NCBI GenBank assembly: GCA_007693855.1
Contig: RECU01000038.1
Span: forward strand, 1-64,000
Reading direction: 5' to 3'
Length of the DNA stretch: 64,000 bases
Origin: Gammaproteobacteria bacterium
GTDB taxonomy: Bacteria; Pseudomonadota; Gammaproteobacteria; Steroidobacterales; PWYM01
Shown piece after piece: positions 1,584 to 20,064 of the stretch; positions within the stretch are counted from its first letter, which is position 1; each line of letters starts with the position of its first letter. The translations under genes and the position numbers were made by a program. The notes beneath the pieces are model-generated. The model was not told the DNA's origin and made no database searches. It saw only the letters and a list, made by a program, of their open reading frames with translations.

Positions 1584-3812
<2,229 letters not shown>

Positions 3813-4144
3813 GGTTCTCTCCCCAACTGCGGTCGCCGACAAGCGCCGCGACGGATGTGTGACCTGTCACCGGGAGCGGCCCGGATCCGTAAAACATGGC
3901 GGGAGGGCCTGGCGCCACAGCGACGCGGCAGGCTTGCACGGCAACAGGCATCCAGGCCCGTGCGGCGCAGTGGACTCTCCCCCAAGGCGACTGCAGGCGT
4001 GACCTGCTGCACCTCGTTCGTTGCATCGACGCGCCGCGACAGCCCCGGCTAGTCTCGTTATGCAATGAACGGCTGAAGTATGGAATCGCGCTCACTGGGC
4101 TGTCAAGACGCGCTGCCGCATGGCCACCTGGCACCCAACCGGCC

Positions 4145-5098
4145 TCAGCGCTGTTGCGAGCGCGCCACGCTGGGCGCCGCAGCAACAGGAGCGATGTTGT
4201 GACTGTCGAGCAAGCCGCCGCAGGCGCTGCACACCACCTGCGGGCGCAGCACCGCGCCGCAGGATCGGTGACTCAGAATCACCGGCACGCCCGCTGCAGG
4301 CGCATACCAGCGATCGCCCCACTGCATCAGCGCCAGCAGAATCGGATAGAACGCCCTGCCCTTGTCGGTCAGCCGGTAGTGGAGGCGTTGCGGGCGCGCC
4401 TGGTAGACCTCGGTGCGGAAGATGCCGAGTTCGACCAGGCGCCGCAGCCGGTCGGCCAGGATGTTCGGCGCCAGCTCGAGCGCCTCGCGCATGTCCTCGA
4501 AGCGCCGCAGCCCGAAAAACGCGGTCGCCGCGACCTGCGGCGTCCAGCGATCTCCCAGCATTTCGAGCAGTTCGTGGGAGACGAGGGTGCGGGTGGCCGG
4601 CTGGCCTTCGACGGTGCTGCGCCGCCGGCGAGGCGCACGCGAGGCGATCTCCCGGGCACCCGGGCCCAGCGCATAGTCGACCTCGCGCGGATCCACTTCG
4701 CCAGCACAGTGGGCGCAGCTCATGCGCGGCGTGGTGAGCTTGCCGCAGTCGAGATGCCGCAGCTGCACCAGCGCCTGCCCTGTGGGCGGCGCCCAGCGCT
4801 GCTGCCAGGCCAGCGACATCATCGCCGCAGGGTAAAGATCGCGCCCCTTGACACTCAGCCGATACTCGTAGCGGCGCGGGCGGTCACTGTAGGCTTCGCG
4901 TACCAGCACCTCGTGGTCCAGCAGGTGCTTCAGCCGGTTGGTCAGCGTGCTGCGGGCCAGCTCCAGCCGGGCCTGGAAGTCATCGAAGCGGCGGACCCCG
5001 AACCAGGCCTGCTGCAGGATCATGATCAGCCAGCGATCGCCGATCACGTCGAGAGCCCGGTTGACCGAGCTTGCCCTGATGTAGGCACTGTCGAACAT
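4145..5098 (-). CDS. Tandem HxlR-family winged-helix transcriptional regulator (two fused HxlR domains)
   Basis: Two repeats: DVIGDRWLIMILQQAWFGVRRFDDF... and EMLGDRWTPQVAATAFFGLRRFEDM..., each followed by C-x9-C-x2-C. Start chosen at MFDSAYIRAS. Confidence 0.88.
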   Translation of the reverse strand: MFDSAYIRASSVNRALDVIGDRWLIMILQQAWFGVRRFDDFQARLELARSTLTNRLKHLLDHEVLVREAYSDRPRRYEYRLSVKGRDLYPAAMMSLAWQQRWAPPTGQALVQLRHLDCGKLTTPRMSCAHCAGEVDPREVDYALGPGAREIASRAPRRRRSTVEGQPATRTLVSHELLEMLGDRWTPQVAATAFFGLRRFEDMREALELAPNILADRLRRLVELGIFRTEVYQARPQRLHYRLTDKGRAFYPILLALMQWGDRWYAPAAGVPVILSHRSCGAVLRPQVVCSACGGLLDSHNIAPVAAAPSVARSQQR

Positions 5099-6154: not shown

Positions 6155-6183
6155 ACGCAAATCCACCAATGGGGGAGAACCAC

Positions 6184-7863
6184 ATGACGCCTTCCAGGGA
6201 AGCACGAATCCAGGAGTTCACCGGCCGCGGCTGGTGGGGCACCGACACACTGGACACACTCTTCCGCGCCGCGGTCGAGCAACATGGCGAGCGCGAAGCA
6301 CTGGTCGATCAGCCCAATCGCAGTGAGCTCTGCGACGGCGAGGCGCTGCGACTGACGTATGCCGAACTCGAGCGCCACGTCTCGGCGTGGACACGGGTGC
6401 TCGCGAAGCGCGGCATCGGCAAGGGCGACATCGTGGTGGCGCAACTGCCGAACATCGCCGAGTTCGTGATTCTGTATCTGGCGATCGCGCGGCAGGGCGC
6501 CGTGATCAGCCCCCTGCCCGTGCAGTACGGGGCCCACGAGCTGCGCATGGCCTCGCGGACGGTCACCGCGCGGGCCTACATCACCGTCACCCGCCTCAAG
6601 GACCAGCCCTACGGCGCGCAGGCCTTTGCCGACGGCGTAGCGCTTGGCGCGAGACTGTTCCTGGGCCGCGACGTGCCCGAGGGCGGCGAGGGTCTGGACG
6701 CCGAACTCGCGGCGGCACTGGCCGAGGGCGGCAGCGCGCCGGCCGCCGAGGTCGATGCAAACGACGTCTACACCATCTGCTGGACCTCCGGCACCACGGG
6801 CACGCCCAAGGGCGTGCCGCGCACCTACAACCAGTGGCTGGCCATCGGCTGGGCGACCTATGATGCCGCCGAGCTGCGCGACGGCGATGTGCTGCTCAAC
6901 CCTTTCCCGTTCGTGAACATGGCGAGCATCGGCGGCTTCCTGTTCAACTGGCTGCGCTGCGGCGCCAAGATGGTGCTGCACCATCCGCTGGACCTGCCCG
7001 TGTTCCTGCAGCAGATCGCCGCGGAGGGCACTACCTTCACCATCGCACCGCCGGCACTGCTGAACATGCTGCTCAAGCAGGAAGTGCTTGCCAAGATCGA
7101 TCTCTCCCGGCTGCGCGCGATCGGCTCAGGCTCCGCACCGCTGTCACCCTGGATGGTCAAGGGCTTCGCGGAACAGCACAACGTCCACATCATCAATCTC
7201 TTCGGTTCCAATGAAGGCATCTCGCTGGTCAGCGGGCCGCGCGAGATCCCTGATCCGGAGGCGCGAGCCGTGCTGTTCCCGCGCTTTGGCGTCGCGGGCA
7301 TCGAGTGGGACAACCGCGTGGCGGCGATGGTGCAGACCCGCCTCGTCGATCCGGACAGCGGCGAGATCATTACCGCGCCCGGACAGGTGGGTGAACTGCA
7401 GATTGCCGGCGCCACCATTTTCGACGGTTACCTCGGCGATGCCGCCGGCAGCACCACCTTCACCGATGACGGTTACTTCCACACCGGCGACCTGTTCGAG
7501 ATCGCCGATGACGAAGACCCGCCGCGCCACTATCGTTTCGTCGGGCGACGCAAGGAAATCATCCTGCGTGGCGGCTACAACATCTCGCCGGACGAACTCG
7601 ACAGCCTGCTCGCCGCCCATCCCAAGCTCACCGAGGCGGCCACGGTCGGCTATCCCGACGACACGCTTGGCGAGCGGGTCTGCGTGTTCGCGGTGCCGAA
7701 GGCGGGCGAGACGGTCACCCTCGAGGACATCACCGGCTTTCTCGCCGCCCAGGGCCTGGCGAAGTTCAAGCTGCCCGAGCGCCTGGAAATCACCGACGTG
7801 CTGCCGCGCAACGCGCTCGGCAAGGTCGTGCGTGGCGAGTTGCGGGCGCAACTGGACGGTTGA
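6184..7863 (+). CDS. AMP-dependent synthetase/ligase (class I adenylate-forming, DHB-AMP ligase-like)
   Basis: WTSGTTGTPKGVPRTYNQW, YFHTGDLFEI, GRRKEIILRGGYNISPDELD, NALGKVVRGEL. Confidence 0.9.
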   Translation: MTPSREARIQEFTGRGWWGTDTLDTLFRAAVEQHGEREALVDQPNRSELCDGEALRLTYAELERHVSAWTRVLAKRGIGKGDIVVAQLPNIAEFVILYLAIARQGAVISPLPVQYGAHELRMASRTVTARAYITVTRLKDQPYGAQAFADGVALGARLFLGRDVPEGGEGLDAELAAALAEGGSAPAAEVDANDVYTICWTSGTTGTPKGVPRTYNQWLAIGWATYDAAELRDGDVLLNPFPFVNMASIGGFLFNWLRCGAKMVLHHPLDLPVFLQQIAAEGTTFTIAPPALLNMLLKQEVLAKIDLSRLRAIGSGSAPLSPWMVKGFAEQHNVHIINLFGSNEGISLVSGPREIPDPEARAVLFPRFGVAGIEWDNRVAAMVQTRLVDPDSGEIITAPGQVGELQIAGATIFDGYLGDAAGSTTFTDDGYFHTGDLFEIADDEDPPRHYRFVGRRKEIILRGGYNISPDELDSLLAAHPKLTEAATVGYPDDTLGERVCVFAVPKAGETVTLEDITGFLAAQGLAKFKLPERLEITDVLPRNALGKVVRGELRAQLDG

Positions 7864-8351: not shown

Positions 8352-10052
8352 ATGAGCACCGATCACTTCGATACCCACCGCAAGCGCCTTGAAGACGCAC
8401 AGGCCGCGCTGGCCACGCGCAGCGCCCACACGGCGTTTCGTGAATCCCCCAGCACCCGGGTGCATGGTGAGGAAGCACCACGCGCCGGCAAAGCTGCCTT
8501 CGAGGCCCGGCTGGGGCAGCGCTTCGCGATCGATCAACCCGGCACCATCGACTGGATCGGCGAGGAAATCTCGCCCTATACCGGGGAGGCCCTGGGCATC
8601 AGCTACCCGCGCTGTGACGTCGATACGCTGTTCGGTGCGGCCCGCGCGGCCATGCCGGCCTGGCGTGACGCCGGCCCGCGCGCGCGGGTGGGCCTGTGCC
8701 TGGAGATGCTGGCGCAGCTGGCGGACCGGGCGTTCGAGAATGCCCATGCCGTGATGCACACGGCCGGACAGAGCTACGCCATGGCCTATGCGGGCTCCGG
8801 GCCGAACGCGCTCGACCGCGGGCTCGAGGCCCTGGCGCTCGCCTGGCAGGCGCAGCAGCAGGTGCCCGGCGAGGCCCGCTGGCAGAAGCGCTTCGGCAAG
8901 GATGAGGTGGTGCTGGAAAAACGCTACCGGATCATGCCGCTGGGCCCTGCCGTGGTGTTCTGCTGCGCCACCTTCCCGACCTGGAACGCCCATCCCGCGA
9001 TCTTTGCCAACCTCGCCACCGGCAATCCCGTGCTGGTCAAGCCACATCCCGGCTGTGTGCTGCCGATGGCGATCACGGTCGAGACGCTGCGAAAAGTCCT
9101 TGCAGACAATGGCCACGACCCGAACCTCGTACAGCTGTGCGTCGACTCCACCACCGCGCCACTGGGCAAGGTGCTGGTCGAGCATCCCCAAGCGGCCATC
9201 ATCGACTTCACCGGCAGTGCGCGGTTCGGCAGCTGGGTCGAGGCGCATGCCGGGGGGCGGCCCTGCTACACCGAAACCTCGGGCGTGAACTCGGTGGTCA
9301 TCGAGTCCTGCGATTCGCTGCCGGCCATGGCGGCGGCCATCGCCGGCTCCGTCTGCCTGTTCTCCTCGCAGATGTGCACCAGCCCGCAGAACATCTACGT
9401 GCCTGCCGGTGGCATCGACAGCGCCGCCGGACACCATTCGGCCGACGAGGTGCGCGCCGCCATCGTCGCCGCCATCGACGCGATCGCCGAGGCCCCGGCG
9501 CGGGCGGCCAGCGTGATGGGCACGATCCAGTCCCGCGACACCCTGCGGCTCATCGAGCACTGGCAGCAGCGCGGCGCCGAGGCGGGCACGGTGCTCAGGC
9601 GCTCGGCGGCCTACCTGCATCCGGAGCATCCGCAGGCCTGGACGGCGACGCCGCTGGTCATCGGCCTGGGCATCGATCGCCACGAACTGTATTCCGATGA
9701 GGTGTTCGGGCCGATCGCCTTCATCATCGAGGCAGCCGACGCCGACCAGGCACTCGCCCAGGCCACGCGTGACGCCCGCGAGCACGGTGCCATCACGGCG
9801 TTTGCCTACTCGGCCAACGAGGCCTGGCTGGAACGCGCGGAGGCCGCGTTCGCCGAAGCCGGCGCCGCACTGACCGAGAACCTCACCGGCGCCATGCCCC
9901 TGAACTTCGCGGCCGCCTACAGCGACCTGCACGTCAGCGGCTTGAACCCGGCAGGCAATGCCAGTCTCGCCGACTGGTCGTTCGTCGCCGGGCGCTTCCG
10001 CATTGCCCAGGCCAGGCGGCCGGTATCGGCCCGCGCGCAAGCCGCGGGCTGA
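8352..10052 (+). CDS. paaN: PaaN-like aldehyde dehydrogenase family protein (phenylacetate degradation PaaN type)
   Basis: 566 aa; GPAVVFCCATFPTWNAHPAIFANLATGNPVLVKPHP...FTGSARFGSWVE...CLFSSQMCTSPQNIYV. Confidence 0.7.
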   Translation: MSTDHFDTHRKRLEDAQAALATRSAHTAFRESPSTRVHGEEAPRAGKAAFEARLGQRFAIDQPGTIDWIGEEISPYTGEALGISYPRCDVDTLFGAARAAMPAWRDAGPRARVGLCLEMLAQLADRAFENAHAVMHTAGQSYAMAYAGSGPNALDRGLEALALAWQAQQQVPGEARWQKRFGKDEVVLEKRYRIMPLGPAVVFCCATFPTWNAHPAIFANLATGNPVLVKPHPGCVLPMAITVETLRKVLADNGHDPNLVQLCVDSTTAPLGKVLVEHPQAAIIDFTGSARFGSWVEAHAGGRPCYTETSGVNSVVIESCDSLPAMAAAIAGSVCLFSSQMCTSPQNIYVPAGGIDSAAGHHSADEVRAAIVAAIDAIAEAPARAASVMGTIQSRDTLRLIEHWQQRGAEAGTVLRRSAAYLHPEHPQAWTATPLVIGLGIDRHELYSDEVFGPIAFIIEAADADQALAQATRDAREHGAITAFAYSANEAWLERAEAAFAEAGAALTENLTGAMPLNFAAAYSDLHVSGLNPAGNASLADWSFVAGRFRIAQARRPVSARAQAAG

Positions 10053-10064
10053 CCCCTGCAGCCC

Positions 10065-10092
10065 TTGCTTTGTGCAGCGCCGGGCGTATGAT
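10065..10092 (+). promoter_or_regulatory. Candidate sigma70 promoter for the C39 / ATP-grasp / GCS2 operon
   Basis: TTGCTT-16 nt-TATGAT, 42 nt upstream of the ATG at 10134. Confidence 0.5.
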
Positions 10093-10133
10093 CCGCGCAC
10101 GCGCGCTGTTGCCGTATTGCCGGTGGCACCCTC

Positions 10134-10865
10134 ATGACCCGCCCTCCGCTGGACGTCGAGCTGCAGGTCCCCCTGCTCGCCCAGCCTGACGATTCGACCT
10201 GCGGTCCGACCTGCCTGCATGGCCTGTACGGCTATCACGGCGAAGACATCCCCCTGGAGCAGGTGCTGGCGGAGACGCGGCGCCTCGACACCGGTGGCAC
10301 GCTGGACGTGTTCCTCGCCAACCACGCCCTGCGTCGCGGCTACGAGGCGACCATCTACACCTACAATCTGCGGGTCTTCGATCCGACCTGGTTTGGCATC
10401 GGTGACGGCCACGTCGCCAGGCGGCTGCTCGCCCAGGCCGAGGTCAAGAAAGACCGCAAGCTCGCCACGGCAACCCGCGGCTACCTGGAATTTCTCGCCC
10501 TCGGTGGCGAACTGCGCTTTGAAGACCTGACGGCCAAGCTGCTGCGACGCCTGCTGCGCCAACGCCTGCCCGTGCTCACCGGGCTGTCATCGACCTACCT
10601 GTACCGCGAGGCCCGCGAGTTCGGCCCGAACGACGATCCCGACGACCTCCGCGGCGAACCCGCCGGGCACTTCGTGCTGCTGGTCGGGTATCGCAGCGAG
10701 CAGCGCAGTGTGCTGGTTGCCGATCCGATGCACCCGAATCCGCTGTCGCCCGCCCACCGCTACGAGGTCGGCATCGAGCGGCTGATCTGCAGCATTCTCC
10801 TGGGCATCCTCACCTACGATGCCAACCTTCTGGTGATCCGTCCCCCACCCCATCCCCGCCACTGA
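10134..10865 (+). CDS. C39-like papain-fold cysteine peptidase
   Basis: QPDDSTCGPTCLHGLYGYHG (Cys), GHFVLLVGY (His), VADP (Asp) catalytic pattern. Confidence 0.8.
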   Translation: MTRPPLDVELQVPLLAQPDDSTCGPTCLHGLYGYHGEDIPLEQVLAETRRLDTGGTLDVFLANHALRRGYEATIYTYNLRVFDPTWFGIGDGHVARRLLAQAEVKKDRKLATATRGYLEFLALGGELRFEDLTAKLLRRLLRQRLPVLTGLSSTYLYREAREFGPNDDPDDLRGEPAGHFVLLVGYRSEQRSVLVADPMHPNPLSPAHRYEVGIERLICSILLGILTYDANLLVIRPPPHPRH

Positions 10866-10878
10866 CCGGCAGACCCCC

Positions 10879-12351
10879 GTGAACATTCTGTTCGTCGTCA
10901 CCCGCCCCGAGGACTGGCCGCTCGATGTCCCCGGCGTCGAGGTCGTGCCCGCGCGCGCCTATCTCACCGACCCGGCCTTCAGCCGTGAGCGCACGGCGCG
11001 GGTCTTCAACCTGTGCAAATCCTACCGCTACCAGAGCGTCGGCTACTACGTGTCACTGCTCGCCGCCGCACGCGGTCATCGTCCGCGCCCGAGCATCACA
11101 GCGATCCAGGACATGCGCTCGCAGCGCGTGGTCCGGCTGCTGTCGGCGGAGATCGATGAGCAGGTGCGCCGCGCGCTCGGTCACCTGCAGTCGGAGCGGT
11201 TCATCCTCAGCATTTATTTCGGTCGCAACATCACGGCCCGCTACAACGCCCTGGCCGGCAGCCTGTTCGGCCTGTTCGAAGCCCCCCTGCTGCGCGCCGA
11301 GTTCGAACGCCGCGAGGGGGAATGGCAGCTGCGTGGCGTGCGCCCGATCGCCGCGGCCGACATCCCGGAGCATCATCGCGACTTCGTCGTCGAGGCGGCG
11401 ACACGGTATTTTGCCGGGCGTCAGCGCCGCTACCGCCGGCGCACTGCCACCCGCTACGATCTGGCCATCCTGCACGACCCCGAGGATCCGGAGCCCCCCT
11501 CCGATGCCCGCGCGCTGGCGCAGTTCGTGCGGGCCGCAGAGAGTGTCGGCATGAGTGCCACGCTGATCACCCGTGAAGAGGCCGGCAGGCTGGCCGAGTT
11601 CGACGGCCTGTTCATTCGCGAGACCACCGCAGTCAATCATCACACCTACCGCATCGCGCGGCGCGCCGAGGCCGAGGGCATCGTGGTGATCGATGACCCG
11701 GATTCGATTCTCAAGTGCACCAACAAGGTCTACCTGGCGGAACTGCTCGAGCAGCACGAGATTCCCGCGCCACGTACGCTGATCGTCCACCGTGACAACG
11801 CCGGCGAGATCGCCGCCACGCTCGGCCTGCCGGTGGTGCTGAAGCAGCCGGACAGCGCCTTCTCACGCGGGGTGATCAAGGTGGACGACGAGACGGCGCT
11901 CGCCGAGACCGTCCGCAACATGCTGGAGCAGTCGGATCTGGTGGTCGCCCAGGAATTCCTGCCGACCGCCTTCGACTGGCGCGTCGGCATTCTCGACGGC
12001 CGACCGCTGTACGTCTGCAAGTATTTCATGGCACGGCGGCACTGGCAGATCATCCGCCGCGACAGCAGTGGCCGCGCACATGCGGGCAATGCGCAGACGA
12101 TGGCCGTGGGCGAGGCGCCGCCGGAAGTGGTGCGGACGGCGCTGCGCGCCGCCAACCTCATTGGCAATGGCCTCTATGGCGTGGATCTCAAGCAGATCGG
12201 CCGACGCTGCCATGTGATCGAGGTGAACGACAACCCGAGCATCGATGCCGGCGTCGAGGACGCCGTGCTCAAGGGCGCGCTGTATCGCGAAATCATGGGC
12301 GTTTTTCTCAATCGCATCGAGGCGCGCAAGCGCCCACCGGAACACACGTGA
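10879..12351 (+). CDS. RimK-like ATP-grasp ligase with RLAN-type N-terminal domain
   Basis: GTG start; N-terminal MNILFVVTRPEDW...RVFNLCKSYRYQSVGYYVSLLAAARGH; ATP-grasp core PVVLKQPDSAFSRGV, YGVDLKQIGRRCHVIEVNDNPSID. Confidence 0.85.
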   Translation: MNILFVVTRPEDWPLDVPGVEVVPARAYLTDPAFSRERTARVFNLCKSYRYQSVGYYVSLLAAARGHRPRPSITAIQDMRSQRVVRLLSAEIDEQVRRALGHLQSERFILSIYFGRNITARYNALAGSLFGLFEAPLLRAEFERREGEWQLRGVRPIAAADIPEHHRDFVVEAATRYFAGRQRRYRRRTATRYDLAILHDPEDPEPPSDARALAQFVRAAESVGMSATLITREEAGRLAEFDGLFIRETTAVNHHTYRIARRAEAEGIVVIDDPDSILKCTNKVYLAELLEQHEIPAPRTLIVHRDNAGEIAATLGLPVVLKQPDSAFSRGVIKVDDETALAETVRNMLEQSDLVVAQEFLPTAFDWRVGILDGRPLYVCKYFMARRHWQIIRRDSSGRAHAGNAQTMAVGEAPPEVVRTALRAANLIGNGLYGVDLKQIGRRCHVIEVNDNPSIDAGVEDAVLKGALYREIMGVFLNRIEARKRPPEHT

Positions 12352-13592
12352 ACACCGATTCCTCTCCCCTGCAGGCCTTTGCCGGCTACGGCATCGAGAT
12401 CGAGTACATGCTCGTCGAGCGGCGCAGTCTCGATGTCGCCCCCCTCAGCGATCGGCTGATCCACGAGGTCGCCGGCGCCTACCTGAGCGAAGTCGACAGA
12501 GGGCCGCTGGCCTGGTCGAACGAGCTGGTGCTGCACGTGCTCGAACTCAAGACCAACGGCCCGGCACCGCGGCTCGACGCGCTGCCTGCACTCTTCCAGG
12601 ACGAGGTCACACGCATCAACCGCATGCTGGCGGCACATGACGCGCGCCTGATGCCAGGGGGCGCCCACCCCTGGATGGCACCGCTGACGCAGACCCGTCT
12701 CTGGCCGCACGAGTACGATATCGTCTATGAAGCCTACGACCGTATCTTCGGGTGTCGGGGGCATGGCTGGTCGAACCTGCAGAGTGTCCATATCAACCTG
12801 CCGTTCGCCGACGACACGGAATTTGCGCGGCTGCATTCGGCCGTGCGCCTGGTGCTGCCCCTGCTGCCGGGCCTGGCGGCGAGTTCACCGTTCCTGGAGG
12901 GTCGCTTCACCGGTCTGCTGGACGCCCGCCTGGAGGCCTACCGCCACAACGCCCAGCGCATCCCCAGCATCACCGGCGCGGTCATCCCCGACGTGGTCGG
13001 CTCGCGCGCCGCTTACGAGGCGCGGATCCTCGGGCCCATGTATCGCGATATCGCCGCATTCGATCCGGATGGCGTGCTGCAGCACGAATGGCTGAACTCC
13101 CGCGGAGCCATCGCGCGTTTCGACCGCAACGCCATAGAGATCCGCCTGCTCGATGTCCAGGAAGCGCCGCAGGCGGATCTTGCGGTGGTCGCGGCGGTGG
13201 TCGGCCTGGTCCGGGCGCTCTACGACGGCCCGCTCGCCGACACCGCCGCCCAGGACGCGGTCACCACCGACGCGCTGGCCCGCATCCTGCTCGCGGCCAT
13301 CCGCGACGGTGAGCGCGCGATCGTCGACGACCGCGCCTTGTTGGGCTGTCTTGGCCTGCCACCCAGCCCGCTGACGCTGCAGGCGGTGTGGCGGGCACTG
13401 CTGGCACAGCAGCTCACCCTGCCCCCCGGGGACTGGGCGGCGCCGCTTGAACTGATCCTCGAACAGGGGCCGCTGGCCCGCCGCCTGCTGACCGCCGCCG
13501 GAGACACGCCCACACCAACCCGCCTGCGCGCCATCTACCGTGAACTCTGCCAGTGTCTGCAGCGCGGTGAGCTGTTCAACCCGGAGGGCTGA
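12348..13592 (+). CDS. GCS2-type carboxylate-amine ligase (glutamate-cysteine ligase family 2)
   Basis: FAGYGIEIEYMLV start motif, NELVLHVLELKTNGP, GCRGHGWSNLQSVHINLPF, AIEIRLLDVQE; ATGA overlap with upstream ORF. Confidence 0.82.
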   Translation: MNTDSSPLQAFAGYGIEIEYMLVERRSLDVAPLSDRLIHEVAGAYLSEVDRGPLAWSNELVLHVLELKTNGPAPRLDALPALFQDEVTRINRMLAAHDARLMPGGAHPWMAPLTQTRLWPHEYDIVYEAYDRIFGCRGHGWSNLQSVHINLPFADDTEFARLHSAVRLVLPLLPGLAASSPFLEGRFTGLLDARLEAYRHNAQRIPSITGAVIPDVVGSRAAYEARILGPMYRDIAAFDPDGVLQHEWLNSRGAIARFDRNAIEIRLLDVQEAPQADLAVVAAVVGLVRALYDGPLADTAAQDAVTTDALARILLAAIRDGERAIVDDRALLGCLGLPPSPLTLQAVWRALLAQQLTLPPGDWAAPLELILEQGPLARRLLTAAGDTPTPTRLRAIYRELCQCLQRGELFNPEG

Positions 13593-13598
13593 GCCCCG

Positions 13599-14339
13599 AT
13601 GCCCGCGCACGCGCCAGGGCTGCTGATCACCTGCGAACATGGCGGCAACCGCGTGCCTGCGCGGTATGCGGCACTGTTCGCCGGGCAGCAGGCGCTGCTC
13701 GAGTCTCACCGCGGGCTGGACATCGGCAGCCTGGTCATCGCCCGACAGCTCGCCCACCGCCTGGAGGCGCCACTGGTCGAGGCCACCGTGACCCGGCTGC
13801 TGGTGGACCTGAACCGCTCGCCGGGACGCGGTCGACGGTATTCGGAGATCACCCGCGGGCTGCCGGCGGCGGCGCGCGAGACGCTGGTCCAGCACTACTG
13901 GGCACCCTACCGCGGGCAGGTCGACGCCAGCCTCGCGCGCCTGCTGGCGCAGCATGGGCGGGTGGTGCATGTGTCGGTGCACACTTTTGCCGCGGTCCTC
14001 GACGGGGTGCGCCGCACGGCCGACATCGGGCTGCTCTACGACCCCCGGCGCGCGCCCGAGCGCGCGTTCTGCGAGCAGTGGCAGCAGACCCTGCGGCACA
14101 GCGCGCCAGCGCTCTCGGTACGCCGCAACTACCCCTATCTCGGCCGTGCCGACGGCCTCACCACGGCGCTGCGCCGGCGGCACCCGCCGAGCACCTACAT
14201 CGGCATCGAACTCGAGATCAACCAGGCCATCACCGCCCAGCCCGAGGCCGCCTGGGCAGGACTTCGCCAACAGCTGGCGGACAGCCTCGCGGCGGCACTG
14301 GTGGCCGCGCCCGCCCAGGTTTGGCAGACTCCGGGGTAA
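13599..14339 (+). CDS. N-formylglutamate amidohydrolase family protein
   Basis: LLITCEHGGNRVPARYAALF, HRGLDIGSL, LLVDLNRSPG, VVHVSVHTF, TYIGIELEINQ. Confidence 0.85.
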   Translation: MPAHAPGLLITCEHGGNRVPARYAALFAGQQALLESHRGLDIGSLVIARQLAHRLEAPLVEATVTRLLVDLNRSPGRGRRYSEITRGLPAAARETLVQHYWAPYRGQVDASLARLLAQHGRVVHVSVHTFAAVLDGVRRTADIGLLYDPRRAPERAFCEQWQQTLRHSAPALSVRRNYPYLGRADGLTTALRRRHPPSTYIGIELEINQAITAQPEAAWAGLRQQLADSLAAALVAAPAQVWQTPG

Positions 14340-14362
14340 CTCAACGCCCCGGAGACTGCCCC

Positions 14363-16513
14363 ATGCTTGTACGGTCCCTCGCGCTGCTGGCGCTGCTGCT
14401 CGGCCTGCCGGCCCTGGCCGGTGATGGCCCACGACCGATCACCCATGAGGACCTGTGGCTGATGCCGCGGGTCGGCCAGCCGGAAATCAGCCCCGACGGC
14501 CGACAGGCCATCGTCGAGGTGACCCAACCTGCCTACGACAGCGACGAGCAGGCCTCGCACCTGTGGCTGGTGACCACCGACGGGTCCGGTCCGCCCCGCC
14601 AGTTGACCTTTGCGCGCAGCCGCGAGAGCGGCGTGACCTGGAGCCCGGACAGCCGACGAATCGCCTTCACAACGCGCCGCGACGGTGACAAGGCCAGCCA
14701 GGTCTATGTGCTGGACCTGGTCGCCGGGGGTGAGGCCGAGCGCGTAACCTCGGTCAGCACGGGTGCACGCGCGCCGCGGTTCTCGCCGGATGGCAACCGC
14801 ATCGCCTTCACCAGCGATGTGCCTCCGGGAGCCATGGATGACGAGGACAGTGCCCGCCTCCTCGAGGAGGAATCAGCGCGCAAGCATGAGGTCTACACCT
14901 ACACCGGCTTCCCGATCCGCAACTGGGACCGCTGGCTGCCCGAGCGTCAGCCGCGACTGCTGGTCCAGACCCTGGGCGAGGACGCCGCCATCGACCTGCT
15001 CGCCGGCAGCGAGCTCGTCACCCTGCCCGGCTACGGCGGGCGCAGCACGCCGGGCGGCAGCGAACTCGATGCGGTCTGGGCGCCGGATGGCGAGTCGCTG
15101 GTGTTCGTGGCCACCCGCAACCGCGACCGTGCCGCCTTCGACTTCACCAACACCGAGCTCTGGCAGGTGCCGGCCACGGGCGGCGAACCGCAGCGCCTCA
15201 CCGGCCACGACAGCGCCGAGGGCGGCGACAGCTGGGGGGCACCCGCGTTCAGCCCGGATGGCGCCAGCCTGTATGCCCTGCGCGTGCCGCGAACCGACCG
15301 CGTCTACAACGCCGCCCGCCTGGTGCGGCTGGACTGGCCGAGCGCCGAGCCGCGCGTCGAGATCGAGCTGCCCGAGGCGCGGGCCGTGCTGGAATACAGC
15401 ATCTCCCCGGACAGCCGCGAGGTCTTCATGCTCGCCGACGATGCGGCCCACGTGAAGCTGTTCCGCGCCGACAGCCGCGGCCGGGATATCCGCCTGGCCT
15501 TCGACATGGACAGCGGGATCTACACCGGGCTCTCCGGCGCGCGCCTGGGCAACCGGCCGCTGCTGCTGGCGAGTTTCCAGAGCGCAGTCAGTCCACCCGA
15601 GGTGGTGCGTCTCGACCTGCGCCGCGGGGGCCACCAGGCACTCACCCGCTTCACCGCCGAGCGGGTGGCCGAACTCGATCTCCAGCCGGTGGAGAATTTC
15701 TGGTTCGAGAACGCGGCCGGCGCGCAGGTGCACAGCATGCTGGTCCGCCCGGCAAACTTCGATCCCGAGCGTCGCTATCCGCTGTTCGTCATGATGCGCG
15801 GTGGGCCACACCTCAATTCCCGCGACTACTTCTTCCTGCGCTGGAACTACCACCTGCTGGCCGGTACCGACGTCGTGGTGCTGATGACCAACTACACCGG
15901 CTCCACCGGCTTCGGCGAGGCCTTCGCCCAGGCCATCCAGGGCGACCCCCTGGCCGGCCCGGCCGAGGACATCAACCAGGCCGCCGACGAAGCCATCGCC
16001 CGCTTCGACTTCATCGATGGCGAGCGCCAGTGCGCGGGCGGCGCGAGCTACGGCGGCCATCTGGCCAACTGGATGCAGTCGGCCACCGACCGCTACCGCT
16101 GCCTGGTCAGCCACGCGGGCCTGGTCAACCTCGCCACCCAGTGGGCCACCAGCGACGTGATCTACAGCCGTGAAGTGAACCTCGGCGGCCCACCGTGGCT
16201 GGACGAGGAATTCCCCGTCTGGCTGGAGCAGAATCCGATCCGCTTTGCCGAGAACTGGCAGACGCCGGTGCTGGTGACCATCGGCAAGCTGGATTACCGC
16301 GTACCCCTGGCCAACGTGCTCGAGTACTGGTCAGCACTGCAGCGCCAGCAGATCGAGAGCCGTCTGCTGGTCTACCCGAAGGAAAATCACTGGATTCTGA
16401 ACGGCCACAACAGCCGGCATTTCTACGGCGAGGTCACCGACTGGCTGGCACGCTGGCTGCTGGAGTCGCCGGAAGAGGCGATGGAAACAGCCGAGGCCGA
16501 ACCCGCCCAGTGA
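14363..16513 (+). CDS. S9 family prolyl oligopeptidase / dipeptidyl aminopeptidase, secreted
   Basis: Signal peptide MLVRSLALLALLLGLPALAGD; WD-like propeller; GGASYGGHLANWM nucleophile, GKLDYRVP, ENHWIL. Confidence 0.92.
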   Translation: MLVRSLALLALLLGLPALAGDGPRPITHEDLWLMPRVGQPEISPDGRQAIVEVTQPAYDSDEQASHLWLVTTDGSGPPRQLTFARSRESGVTWSPDSRRIAFTTRRDGDKASQVYVLDLVAGGEAERVTSVSTGARAPRFSPDGNRIAFTSDVPPGAMDDEDSARLLEEESARKHEVYTYTGFPIRNWDRWLPERQPRLLVQTLGEDAAIDLLAGSELVTLPGYGGRSTPGGSELDAVWAPDGESLVFVATRNRDRAAFDFTNTELWQVPATGGEPQRLTGHDSAEGGDSWGAPAFSPDGASLYALRVPRTDRVYNAARLVRLDWPSAEPRVEIELPEARAVLEYSISPDSREVFMLADDAAHVKLFRADSRGRDIRLAFDMDSGIYTGLSGARLGNRPLLLASFQSAVSPPEVVRLDLRRGGHQALTRFTAERVAELDLQPVENFWFENAAGAQVHSMLVRPANFDPERRYPLFVMMRGGPHLNSRDYFFLRWNYHLLAGTDVVVLMTNYTGSTGFGEAFAQAIQGDPLAGPAEDINQAADEAIARFDFIDGERQCAGGASYGGHLANWMQSATDRYRCLVSHAGLVNLATQWATSDVIYSREVNLGGPPWLDEEFPVWLEQNPIRFAENWQTPVLVTIGKLDYRVPLANVLEYWSALQRQQIESRLLVYPKENHWILNGHNSRHFYGEVTDWLARWLLESPEEAMETAEAEPAQ

Positions 16514-18674: not shown

Positions 18675-19055
18675 ATGAGAACGCCTTTCAACCTGCTCTC
18701 CGGCCTGCTCATCAGCCTCGCGCTCATCACCGGGGGCACAGCCAGCGTGGCTCATGGCGCGCTGCTCGACAGCAGCGGCCTGCTGGCTTTCGAGCAACGG
18801 ACCCAGCATCTGGCCAGCGTGGAACAGGCGCTCGCACAGGAGGCGCTGGCCGCACGGCTCGCGGCCATGGGCGTGGACGCGGCGGCGGTGAGCGCCCGGC
18901 TTGGCCAGCTCACCGACGAGGAATTGCAGCTGCTCGCCGAGCGACTGGATCAGCTGCCGGCCGGTGCCGGACTGCTGGAAATCATCGGCATCGTCTTCGT
19001 CGTGCTGCTGATCCTCGAGCTCGTGGGTGTCACCGACATCTTCAAGGCGATCTGA
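18675..19055 (+). CDS. PA2779-family membrane protein
   Basis: 126 aa, N-terminal signal, HLASVEQALAQEALAARLAAMGVD, C-terminal TM GIVFVVLLILELVGVTDIF. Confidence 0.75.
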   Translation: MRTPFNLLSGLLISLALITGGTASVAHGALLDSSGLLAFEQRTQHLASVEQALAQEALAARLAAMGVDAAAVSARLGQLTDEELQLLAERLDQLPAGAGLLEIIGIVFVVLLILELVGVTDIFKAI

Positions 19056-19059
19056 GACC

Positions 19060-20064
19060 GTGCGCCGTCTACCCGGCAGCGGCCGGGTATGGCGGCGCGC
19101 CGCGCCGCTGAGTGTCCTGCTGCTGGCGGGCTGCGCCACCGGACCGCCTCCATTGATCGAGCACCTGCCGGAAGCGGCGCGCAGTGCCGGGCGTCTGCAG
19201 CAGGAGATCACGGCCGTGCCCTTCCATCCCCAGGCCGACTACCAGTGCGGCCCGGCGGCGCTGGCGACGGTACTCGGCTGGAGCGGCGTGCAGACCACGC
19301 CCGAGGCACTCGTGCCGCGGGTCTATCTGCCGGGCCGACAGGGGTCTTTGCAGCCGGAGATCCGCGCGACCGCGCGCGCTTTCAACCGACTGGCCTATGA
19401 GCCGGAACCCAGACTCGCCGCGCTGCTGGCCGAACTCGACGCCGGCCATCCGGTGCTGGTATTGCAGAAACTCGGCGTCGGCCCATGGCCGGGCTGGCAC
19501 TATGCCGTCGTCATCGGCTATGACGCGGTTGCGGAGGCGTTTCTGCTGCGCTCCGGGACTGAGTCTAGACTTCGCGTGTCCAGCCGACGTTTTCTGACGA
19601 GCTGGATCCGCGGTGGCACCTGGGCGCTGGTGGTCCTGCCCCCGGGGACGCTTCCGGCCTCTGCGGACGCCGCACGCTACCAGCATGCCGCCGCCGATCT
19701 CGAAGCCACCGGCAGCCCGGCGGCAGCAAGGGCCGCCTGGGCGGCCGGCGTCACCCGCTGGCCCGACGCCCCGGCCATGTGGTTTGGCCTGGGCAATACC
19801 GCCTACCGGCAGGACGACATAGCGGCTGCGCTGGCGGCTTTCCAGCGCGCCGTGGCGGTAGCGCCAACCCATGCAGCCTCGCACTACAACCTCGCCAGGA
19901 TTCACCTTGAGCACGGCTGTCTCGACCAGGCGAAAACCCACCTGGCAGCAGCCGAAGACGCTCTCGACGCCCTCCCGGGCCTGGCGCCGCTGGTCGCCGA
20001 TGCCCGCGAGGCGCTGGCGCGCGAGCGCGCGCGACCCATCGCACCGATCTGTCAGCTGCCCTGA
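19060..20064 (+). CDS. PA2778-family lipoprotein: C39-like peptidase plus TPR
   Basis: GTG start; lipobox VLLLAGCATG; VPFHPQADYQCGPAALATVLGWSG, GWHYAVVIGYD; C-terminal TPR-like repeats. Confidence 0.82.
   Translation: MRRLPGSGRVWRRAAPLSVLLLAGCATGPPPLIEHLPEAARSAGRLQQEITAVPFHPQADYQCGPAALATVLGWSGVQTTPEALVPRVYLPGRQGSLQPEIRATARAFNRLAYEPEPRLAALLAELDAGHPVLVLQKLGVGPWPGWHYAVVIGYDAVAEAFLLRSGTESRLRVSSRRFLTSWIRGGTWALVVLPPGTLPASADAARYQHAAADLEATGSPAAARAAWAAGVTRWPDAPAMWFGLGNTAYRQDDIAAALAAFQRAVAVAPTHAASHYNLARIHLEHGCLDQAKTHLAAAEDALDALPGLAPLVADAREALARERARPIAPICQLP

Follow-up and report, generated by a model that had tools for sequence, protein, structure and literature searches.

The window analyzed here is a stretch of 64,000 nucleotides (nt) from a gammaproteobacterium (contig RECU01000038.1 of assembly GCA_007693855.1), and the genes under study lie at positions 10134 to 16513. 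There, five open reading frames (ORFs) follow one another on the forward (+) strand with intergenic gaps of 13, −4, 6, and 23 nt. They encode a C39-like peptidase, an ATP-grasp ligase carrying RLAN and RimK domains, a GCS2-family ligase, a member of the N-formylglutamate amidohydrolase family (FGase), and an S9-family peptidase. A first-pass annotation of this DNA had described the same five ORFs on one strand, with gaps of 23 nt or less. All five were located, and the Pfam scores of every family it had named (C39-like, RLAN/RimK, GCS2, N-formylglutamate amidohydrolase-like, and S9) clear the curated cutoffs. The overlap between the two ligase genes, which it had read as ATGA, is actually GTGA, GTG being the start codon of both.

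A conserved four-gene cassette

A search with the GCS2 protein as the query revealed clear orthologues in 15 other genomes of the same order, and the genes for C39, RLAN, GCS2, and FGase are kept in this order on one strand wherever the contig reaches, with two exceptions. In a member of the same genus (locus L122 of genome G415, at about 4635 to 4740, between the PaaN and RLAN genes), the C39 gene is reduced to residues 1 to 22 and 229 to 243, which points to either a deletion within the gene or an error in the assembly. The second exception is locus L134, in which no FGase was detected. One genome per species was then scanned for GCS2 relatives, which are encoded in at least 578 stretches, and the best 80 of these were kept for neighborhood counts. 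RLAN adjoins GCS2 in all 80 loci, C39 is adjacent in 72 of the 75 with room upstream, and FGase is adjacent in 59 of the 75 with room downstream. The spacing is tight (medians of 1, −7, and −10 nt), and the carriers belong to at least nine phyla: Pseudomonadota, Acidobacteriota, Bacteroidota, Gemmatimonadota, Planctomycetota, Thermodesulfobacteriota, Hydrogenedentota, Verrucomicrobia, and Eisenbacteria. Thus, the pairing of the RLAN ATP-grasp ligase with GCS2, whose co-occurrence elsewhere the first-pass annotation had left for checking, was found in 80 of 80 loci as well as in the 15 genomes of the same order, and chance adjacency is ruled out because the first four genes are conserved together across phyla.

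The conserved unit is these four genes and not five. The S9 peptidase (14363 to 16513, +; Pfam Peptidase_S9, 157 bits), which has a hydrophobic, signal-like N terminus, follows the cassette in close congeners only (L121, L122, and L123), and the gene is missing from that place in a fourth congener (L124) and in other genera. The unit as originally drawn therefore stands for its first four members, while S9 was rejected as a component and is a lineage-specific neighbor. The same pattern bears on whether the locus is a peptide salvage operon, in which the hydrolases, S9 included, would degrade imported peptides and the ligases would be incidental. The S9 gene is indeed co-directional and 23 nt downstream in this genus, but outside the close congeners no S9 lies at the cassette, yet both ligases are always there; because of this conservation pattern, the salvage reading is largely refuted, and we give it hardly any credence.

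In the neighborhoods of the sampled loci, no further gene accompanies the cassette across more than a single genus. This holds for small ORFs and carrier-protein genes, a LysW-like carrier among them, and no precursor-peptide ORF or transporter gene is a conserved neighbor. A carrier protein and a precursor peptide were therefore rejected as components. These negatives argue against a specialized peptide product, either graspetide-like or an antibiotic, for which the C39 protein would serve as the leader peptidase. Such a role would fit the precedents that leader peptides are processed by C39 peptidases and that graspetides are macrocyclized by ATP-grasp ligases (PMC8939145), but the cassette has a housekeeping-like spread across many phyla in vertical-looking clades, which is atypical of a specialized product, and we consider this explanation very improbable. 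None of the five window proteins matched a PADLOC model, and a defense-system identity was rejected on that ground.

In Pontibacter, an M20-like peptidase gene and an argininosuccinate-lyase-like gene lie upstream of the cassette, a case of genus-level synteny. A circular record of 9 kb labeled as a Legionella adelaidensis plasmid (NZ_LR134436.1) carries RLAN, GCS2, and FGase together with fur, bamE, and dapF, and it looks like chromosomal DNA.

The cassette enzymes and their active sites

With residue roles assigned from family knowledge, all four enzymes look catalytically competent, and none reaches equivalog status for a named enzyme in NCBIfam. The RLAN plus RimK-type ATP-grasp carboxylate-amine ligase (10879 to 12351, +; 490 amino acids from a GTG start; Pfam RLAN, 164.9 bits, and RimK, 32.6 bits) has the ATP/metal residues of RimK at K283, K322, D436, E448, and N450, which are invariant in 42 relatives. 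Foldseek searches with its AlphaFold2 model (predicted local distance difference test score [pLDDT], 89.1) gave Ddl, ArgX, LysX, and RimK as the best matches. The protein shares the ATP-grasp fold and the ATP/metal residues with RimK, LysX, and ArgX but differs from them in its extra RLAN domain, in a changed FRSNLHRGG region, and in having no link to LysW or S6. With 30 versus 331 bits for PRK10446, it is not an equivalog of RimK, the S6 glutamate ligase. Furthermore, the (GE)FRSNLHRGG segment of RimK is replaced by a family-specific segment containing the invariant residues H388, W389, and Q390 (HWQ), and glutamate should therefore not be assumed as its substrate.

The C39-like (papain-fold) cysteine peptidase or amidase (10134 to 10865, +; 243 amino acids; Pfam Peptidase_C39_2, 42.6 bits) carries the catalytic set Gln-Cys-His-Asp at Q17, C23, H179, and D197, all invariant in 39 relatives. 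Its AlphaFold2 model (pLDDT, 93.9) matched C39 domains in Foldseek and, more weakly, pseudomurein endoisopeptidase and bacterial phytochelatin synthase. In the FGase protein, a putative metal-dependent amidase (13599 to 14339, +; 246 amino acids; Pfam FGase, 98.1 bits), residues E13, H14, H124, H128, E204, and E206 are invariant in 44 relatives, and they align with those of Atu2144 (PDB 2odf), which the FGase profile matched at 4.7e−36. The protein is not an equivalog of the N-formylglutamate deformylase HutG, since it scores 28.4 bits versus a cutoff of 278.75.

A rival reading is protein tagging, in which RLAN would extend a housekeeping protein with amino acids at its C terminus or on a side chain (compare RimK acting on S6), GCS2 would cap the addition, and C39 and FGase would remove it. 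This is supported by the best solved-structure sequence matches of RLAN, namely RimK and LysX/ArgX, enzymes that act on the C termini of proteins, and by the similarity of the C39 fold to isopeptidases. However, no gene for a target or carrier protein is linked to the cassette, the HWQ segment leaves room for an RLAN substrate different from that of RimK, and metal-dependent FGase relatives use small N-acyl amino acids. We regard tagging, with a housekeeping protein as the possible target, as rather unlikely; a small molecule is favored, since the cassette is not linked to a gene for any carrier or target.

The second ligase, a GCS2-family carboxylate-amine ligase unrelated in fold to the ATP-grasp enzyme (12348 to 13592, +; 414 amino acids; Pfam GCS2, 95.3 bits), begins at the GTG of the GTGA overlap with the RLAN gene. 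Its GxExE motif (E17 and E19) and residues E59, E66, H148, E264, and R266 are invariant in 15 relatives, and most of them align with motifs of a second, YbdK-type GCS2 of the same genome, the correspondence of E59 and E66 being judged by eye. Together with the RLAN result described above, these alignments showed that the catalytic residues of both ligases, another point left for checking, are kept. The cassette GCS2 has the fold family and the metal-site glutamates in common with YbdK-type proteins and glutamate-cysteine ligases; it is, however, longer than the YbdK-type protein of the genome (414 versus 380 amino acids), diverges in its C-terminal part, scores 62 versus 176 bits for the YbdK subfamily, and falls far below every glutamate-cysteine ligase equivalog cutoff. 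A search of the PDB with the single GCS2 sequence returned weak matches to plant glutamate-cysteine ligase and YbdK; the sole match of the A1 profile, a lectin, was judged spurious. On contig C48 of the genome (locus L218), a YbdK-type GCS2 gene (2494 to 3636, −) lies 32 nt from an FGase-family gene (3669 to 4556, −) without RLAN or C39. This pairing of the two alone supports the idea that the bond made by GCS2 and the one cut by FGase are directly linked.

The two ligases could also be read by analogy with GshA and GshB, so that GCS2 followed by RLAN would yield a low-molecular-weight thiol or redox cofactor resembling glutathione. GCS2 and ATP-grasp are the fold pair of plant-type glutathione synthesis, and the C39 fold is similar to that of bacterial phytochelatin synthase, which cuts glutathione. 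Against this, GshA (PF04262) and GshB (TIGR01380) are encoded elsewhere in the genome of the window and in all 15 cassette genomes of the same order, GshB is above its cutoff in 26 of 29 cassette genomes, and the glutamate-cysteine ligase scores of the cassette GCS2 are as low as given above. The separate GshA and GshB of the genome make glutathione an unlikely product, and the glutathione pathway was rejected as the role of the cassette. The glutathione-like metabolite suggested in the first-pass annotation is made unlikely by the same canonical enzymes, and a thiol of this kind strikes us as improbable.

The GNAT-type sister form and the proposed conjugate

RLAN genes are present in 72 of 399 sampled Pseudomonadota. 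At 60 other RLAN loci in this phylum, the neighbor is neither GCS2 nor FGase; instead, a GNAT gene was found in 59 of the 60. About half of the loci have it on the same strand as RLAN, and the others have it on the opposite one. The GNAT protein has a C39-like C-terminal domain in 40 of the 60 loci, and this domain and the C39 protein of the cassette are homologs (hhalign probability, 97.4; E value, 1.5e−11). The GNAT module and the cassette thus have in common a homologous ATP-grasp enzyme and a homologous C39-like domain, but the former has a GNAT acyltransferase where the latter has GCS2 and FGase. Since the cassette has no GNAT and carries GCS2 and FGase instead, it belongs to the other form of the system rather than to the GNAT form, which is the commoner of the two. 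In the RLAN tree, the two forms make up separate clades, each with a Shimodaira-Hasegawa-like approximate likelihood ratio test support of 100, and at 70 RLAN positions, among them the ATP/metal residues and the HWQ motif, conservation reaches 93% or more in each form.

Exactly one RLAN gene occurs in each of 28 cassette genomes. The class sample gave the same picture, in that all 63 RLAN-bearing genomes have a single RLAN gene, and 14 also encode the cassette GCS2 (in two drafts, G620 and G621, RLAN and the cassette GCS2 are on different contigs). No genome with both forms was found among the 28 cassette genomes and the 63 RLAN genomes of the class. Separate clades with the same active-site residues and the absence of double carriers from these genomes suggest, therefore, that GCS2 and FGase stand in for GNAT.

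Two observations concern the GNAT-type loci themselves. The GNAT-type RLAN gene on a Pseudomonas aeruginosa plasmid (NZ_CP133752.1) has no GNAT next to it; it sits beside a glutamate transporter gene and pagP, in what is apparently a chromosomal segment. At about 11 loci (e.g., L057:11082-12215), a 377-amino-acid protein with a DUF2817-like start, which we take to be a possible M14-type hydrolase, is encoded downstream, mostly on the other strand.

The cassette shows the features of an RLAN-type amidoligase neighborhood, namely an RLAN domain fused to a RimK-like ATP-grasp domain and a papain-fold partner (C39, in 72 of 75 loci). The Pfam note on RLAN (PF14401) presumably lists GNAT-papain fusions and GCS2 among the neighbors, and the amidoligase survey by Iyer et al. 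of 2009 reportedly predicted RLAN neighborhoods that include GCS2. Those neighborhoods reportedly contain the same RLAN plus RimK enzyme with a papain-fold peptidase as the cassette; the fixed order of C39, RLAN, GCS2, and FGase, the separation of the clades, and the lack of overlap with the GNAT form were measured here. It is a recognized theme that ATP-grasp ligases share operons with a second ligase, COOH-NH2 ligases and GNATs being among the partners (PMC4431377, citing Iyer et al. 2009). In the literature searched, we found no paper on the cassette and no experimental characterization of it. The earlier label of an undescribed system was thus too strong as far as the reported 2009 prediction goes, and it holds for experimental work in that literature. 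The new part is the partner swap between GNAT and GCS2 plus FGase, within a kind of system that had reportedly been predicted before.

We propose, at a probability of roughly 45%, that the cassette serves to build and recycle a small N-capped conjugate of an amino acid or a short peptide. RLAN would activate a carboxylate as an acyl phosphate and join an amino acid to it, and GCS2 would form another amide, in which an amine is probably capped by a gamma-glutamyl-type group or another carboxylate. The C39-like cysteine enzyme may then cleave or transfer one of the bonds, and FGase, probably metal dependent, would take off the acyl cap so that the parts could be reused. In principle, this is similar to glutathionylspermidine synthetase/amidase, in which a papain-fold amidase and an ATP-grasp-like amide ligase make and cleave one conjugate, although those enzymes belong to families different from those of the cassette. 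A pathway that makes and trims such a conjugate had been suggested before; the conserved neighborhood of ligases and hydrolases with kept catalytic residues makes it the most natural reading, from which S9 drops out as a component.

For the two forms together, GNAT and GCS2 would be alternative cappers of the substrate or product of the ATP-grasp enzyme. Both forms probably share the ATP-grasp reaction and differ in the cap, because of the linkage, the intact catalytic residues, and the occurrence of GNAT, with or without C39, in the place of GCS2 and FGase. More tentatively, the RLAN system may make an undiscovered, widespread small metabolite through one ATP-grasp reaction, bearing an acyl cap from GNAT in one lineage and, in the other, an amide cap from GCS2 that FGase can remove.

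Several points weigh against the conjugate proposal. About one-fifth of the cassettes are without an adjacent FGase, so FGase cannot be locally essential, and about one-third of the GNAT-type loci are without a detected C39-like domain. We guessed the reaction order, the gamma-glutamyl cap, and the direction in which the hydrolases work from the chemistry of the families, and the jobs of GNAT and GCS2 might not be equivalent. Mutual exclusion of the two forms is suggestive only, because about 2.5 double carriers were expected under independence in the class sample versus the 0 seen, a comparison that phylogeny confounds.

If a conjugate is indeed formed, bacterial metabolism would gain a new amide conjugate, and functions would be assigned in one stroke to RLAN proteins and to one subfamily each of GCS2 and FGase proteins. 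The partner swap, with the same ATP-grasp enzyme and two cappers, predicts two related products that differ only in the cap and could be found by comparative metabolomics.

Control signals and flanking genes

Direct reading of the letters revealed a promoter-like element, TTGCTT-N16-TATGAT, at 10065 to 10092 (+), where the first-pass annotation had placed a promoter. It matches 8 of 12 consensus positions and is absent from the output of a consensus scan. When five congeneric loci were aligned, TTGC and GGCGTAT were found to be kept with the 16-nt spacer, with flanks that diverge in the two more distant loci. Because of this conservation, the element is a plausible promoter candidate; its position and its retention among congeners speak for the claim, whereas the weak consensus and the scan speak against it. 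A terminator-like hairpin immediately precedes it (10046 to 10064), at the stop codon of a PaaN-like aldehyde dehydrogenase gene (8352 to 10052; 600 bits, exceeding the PaaN cutoff of NCBIfam). An AMP-dependent acyl ligase gene lies further upstream (6169 to 7863). The PaaN and AMP-ligase genes were rejected as parts of the cassette, as their adjacency to it is confined to the genus. The window also encodes a second C39-type protein at 19027 to 20064, which belongs to the PA2778 family with tetratricopeptide repeats, scores over the NCBIfam cutoff, and is unrelated in position to the cassette.

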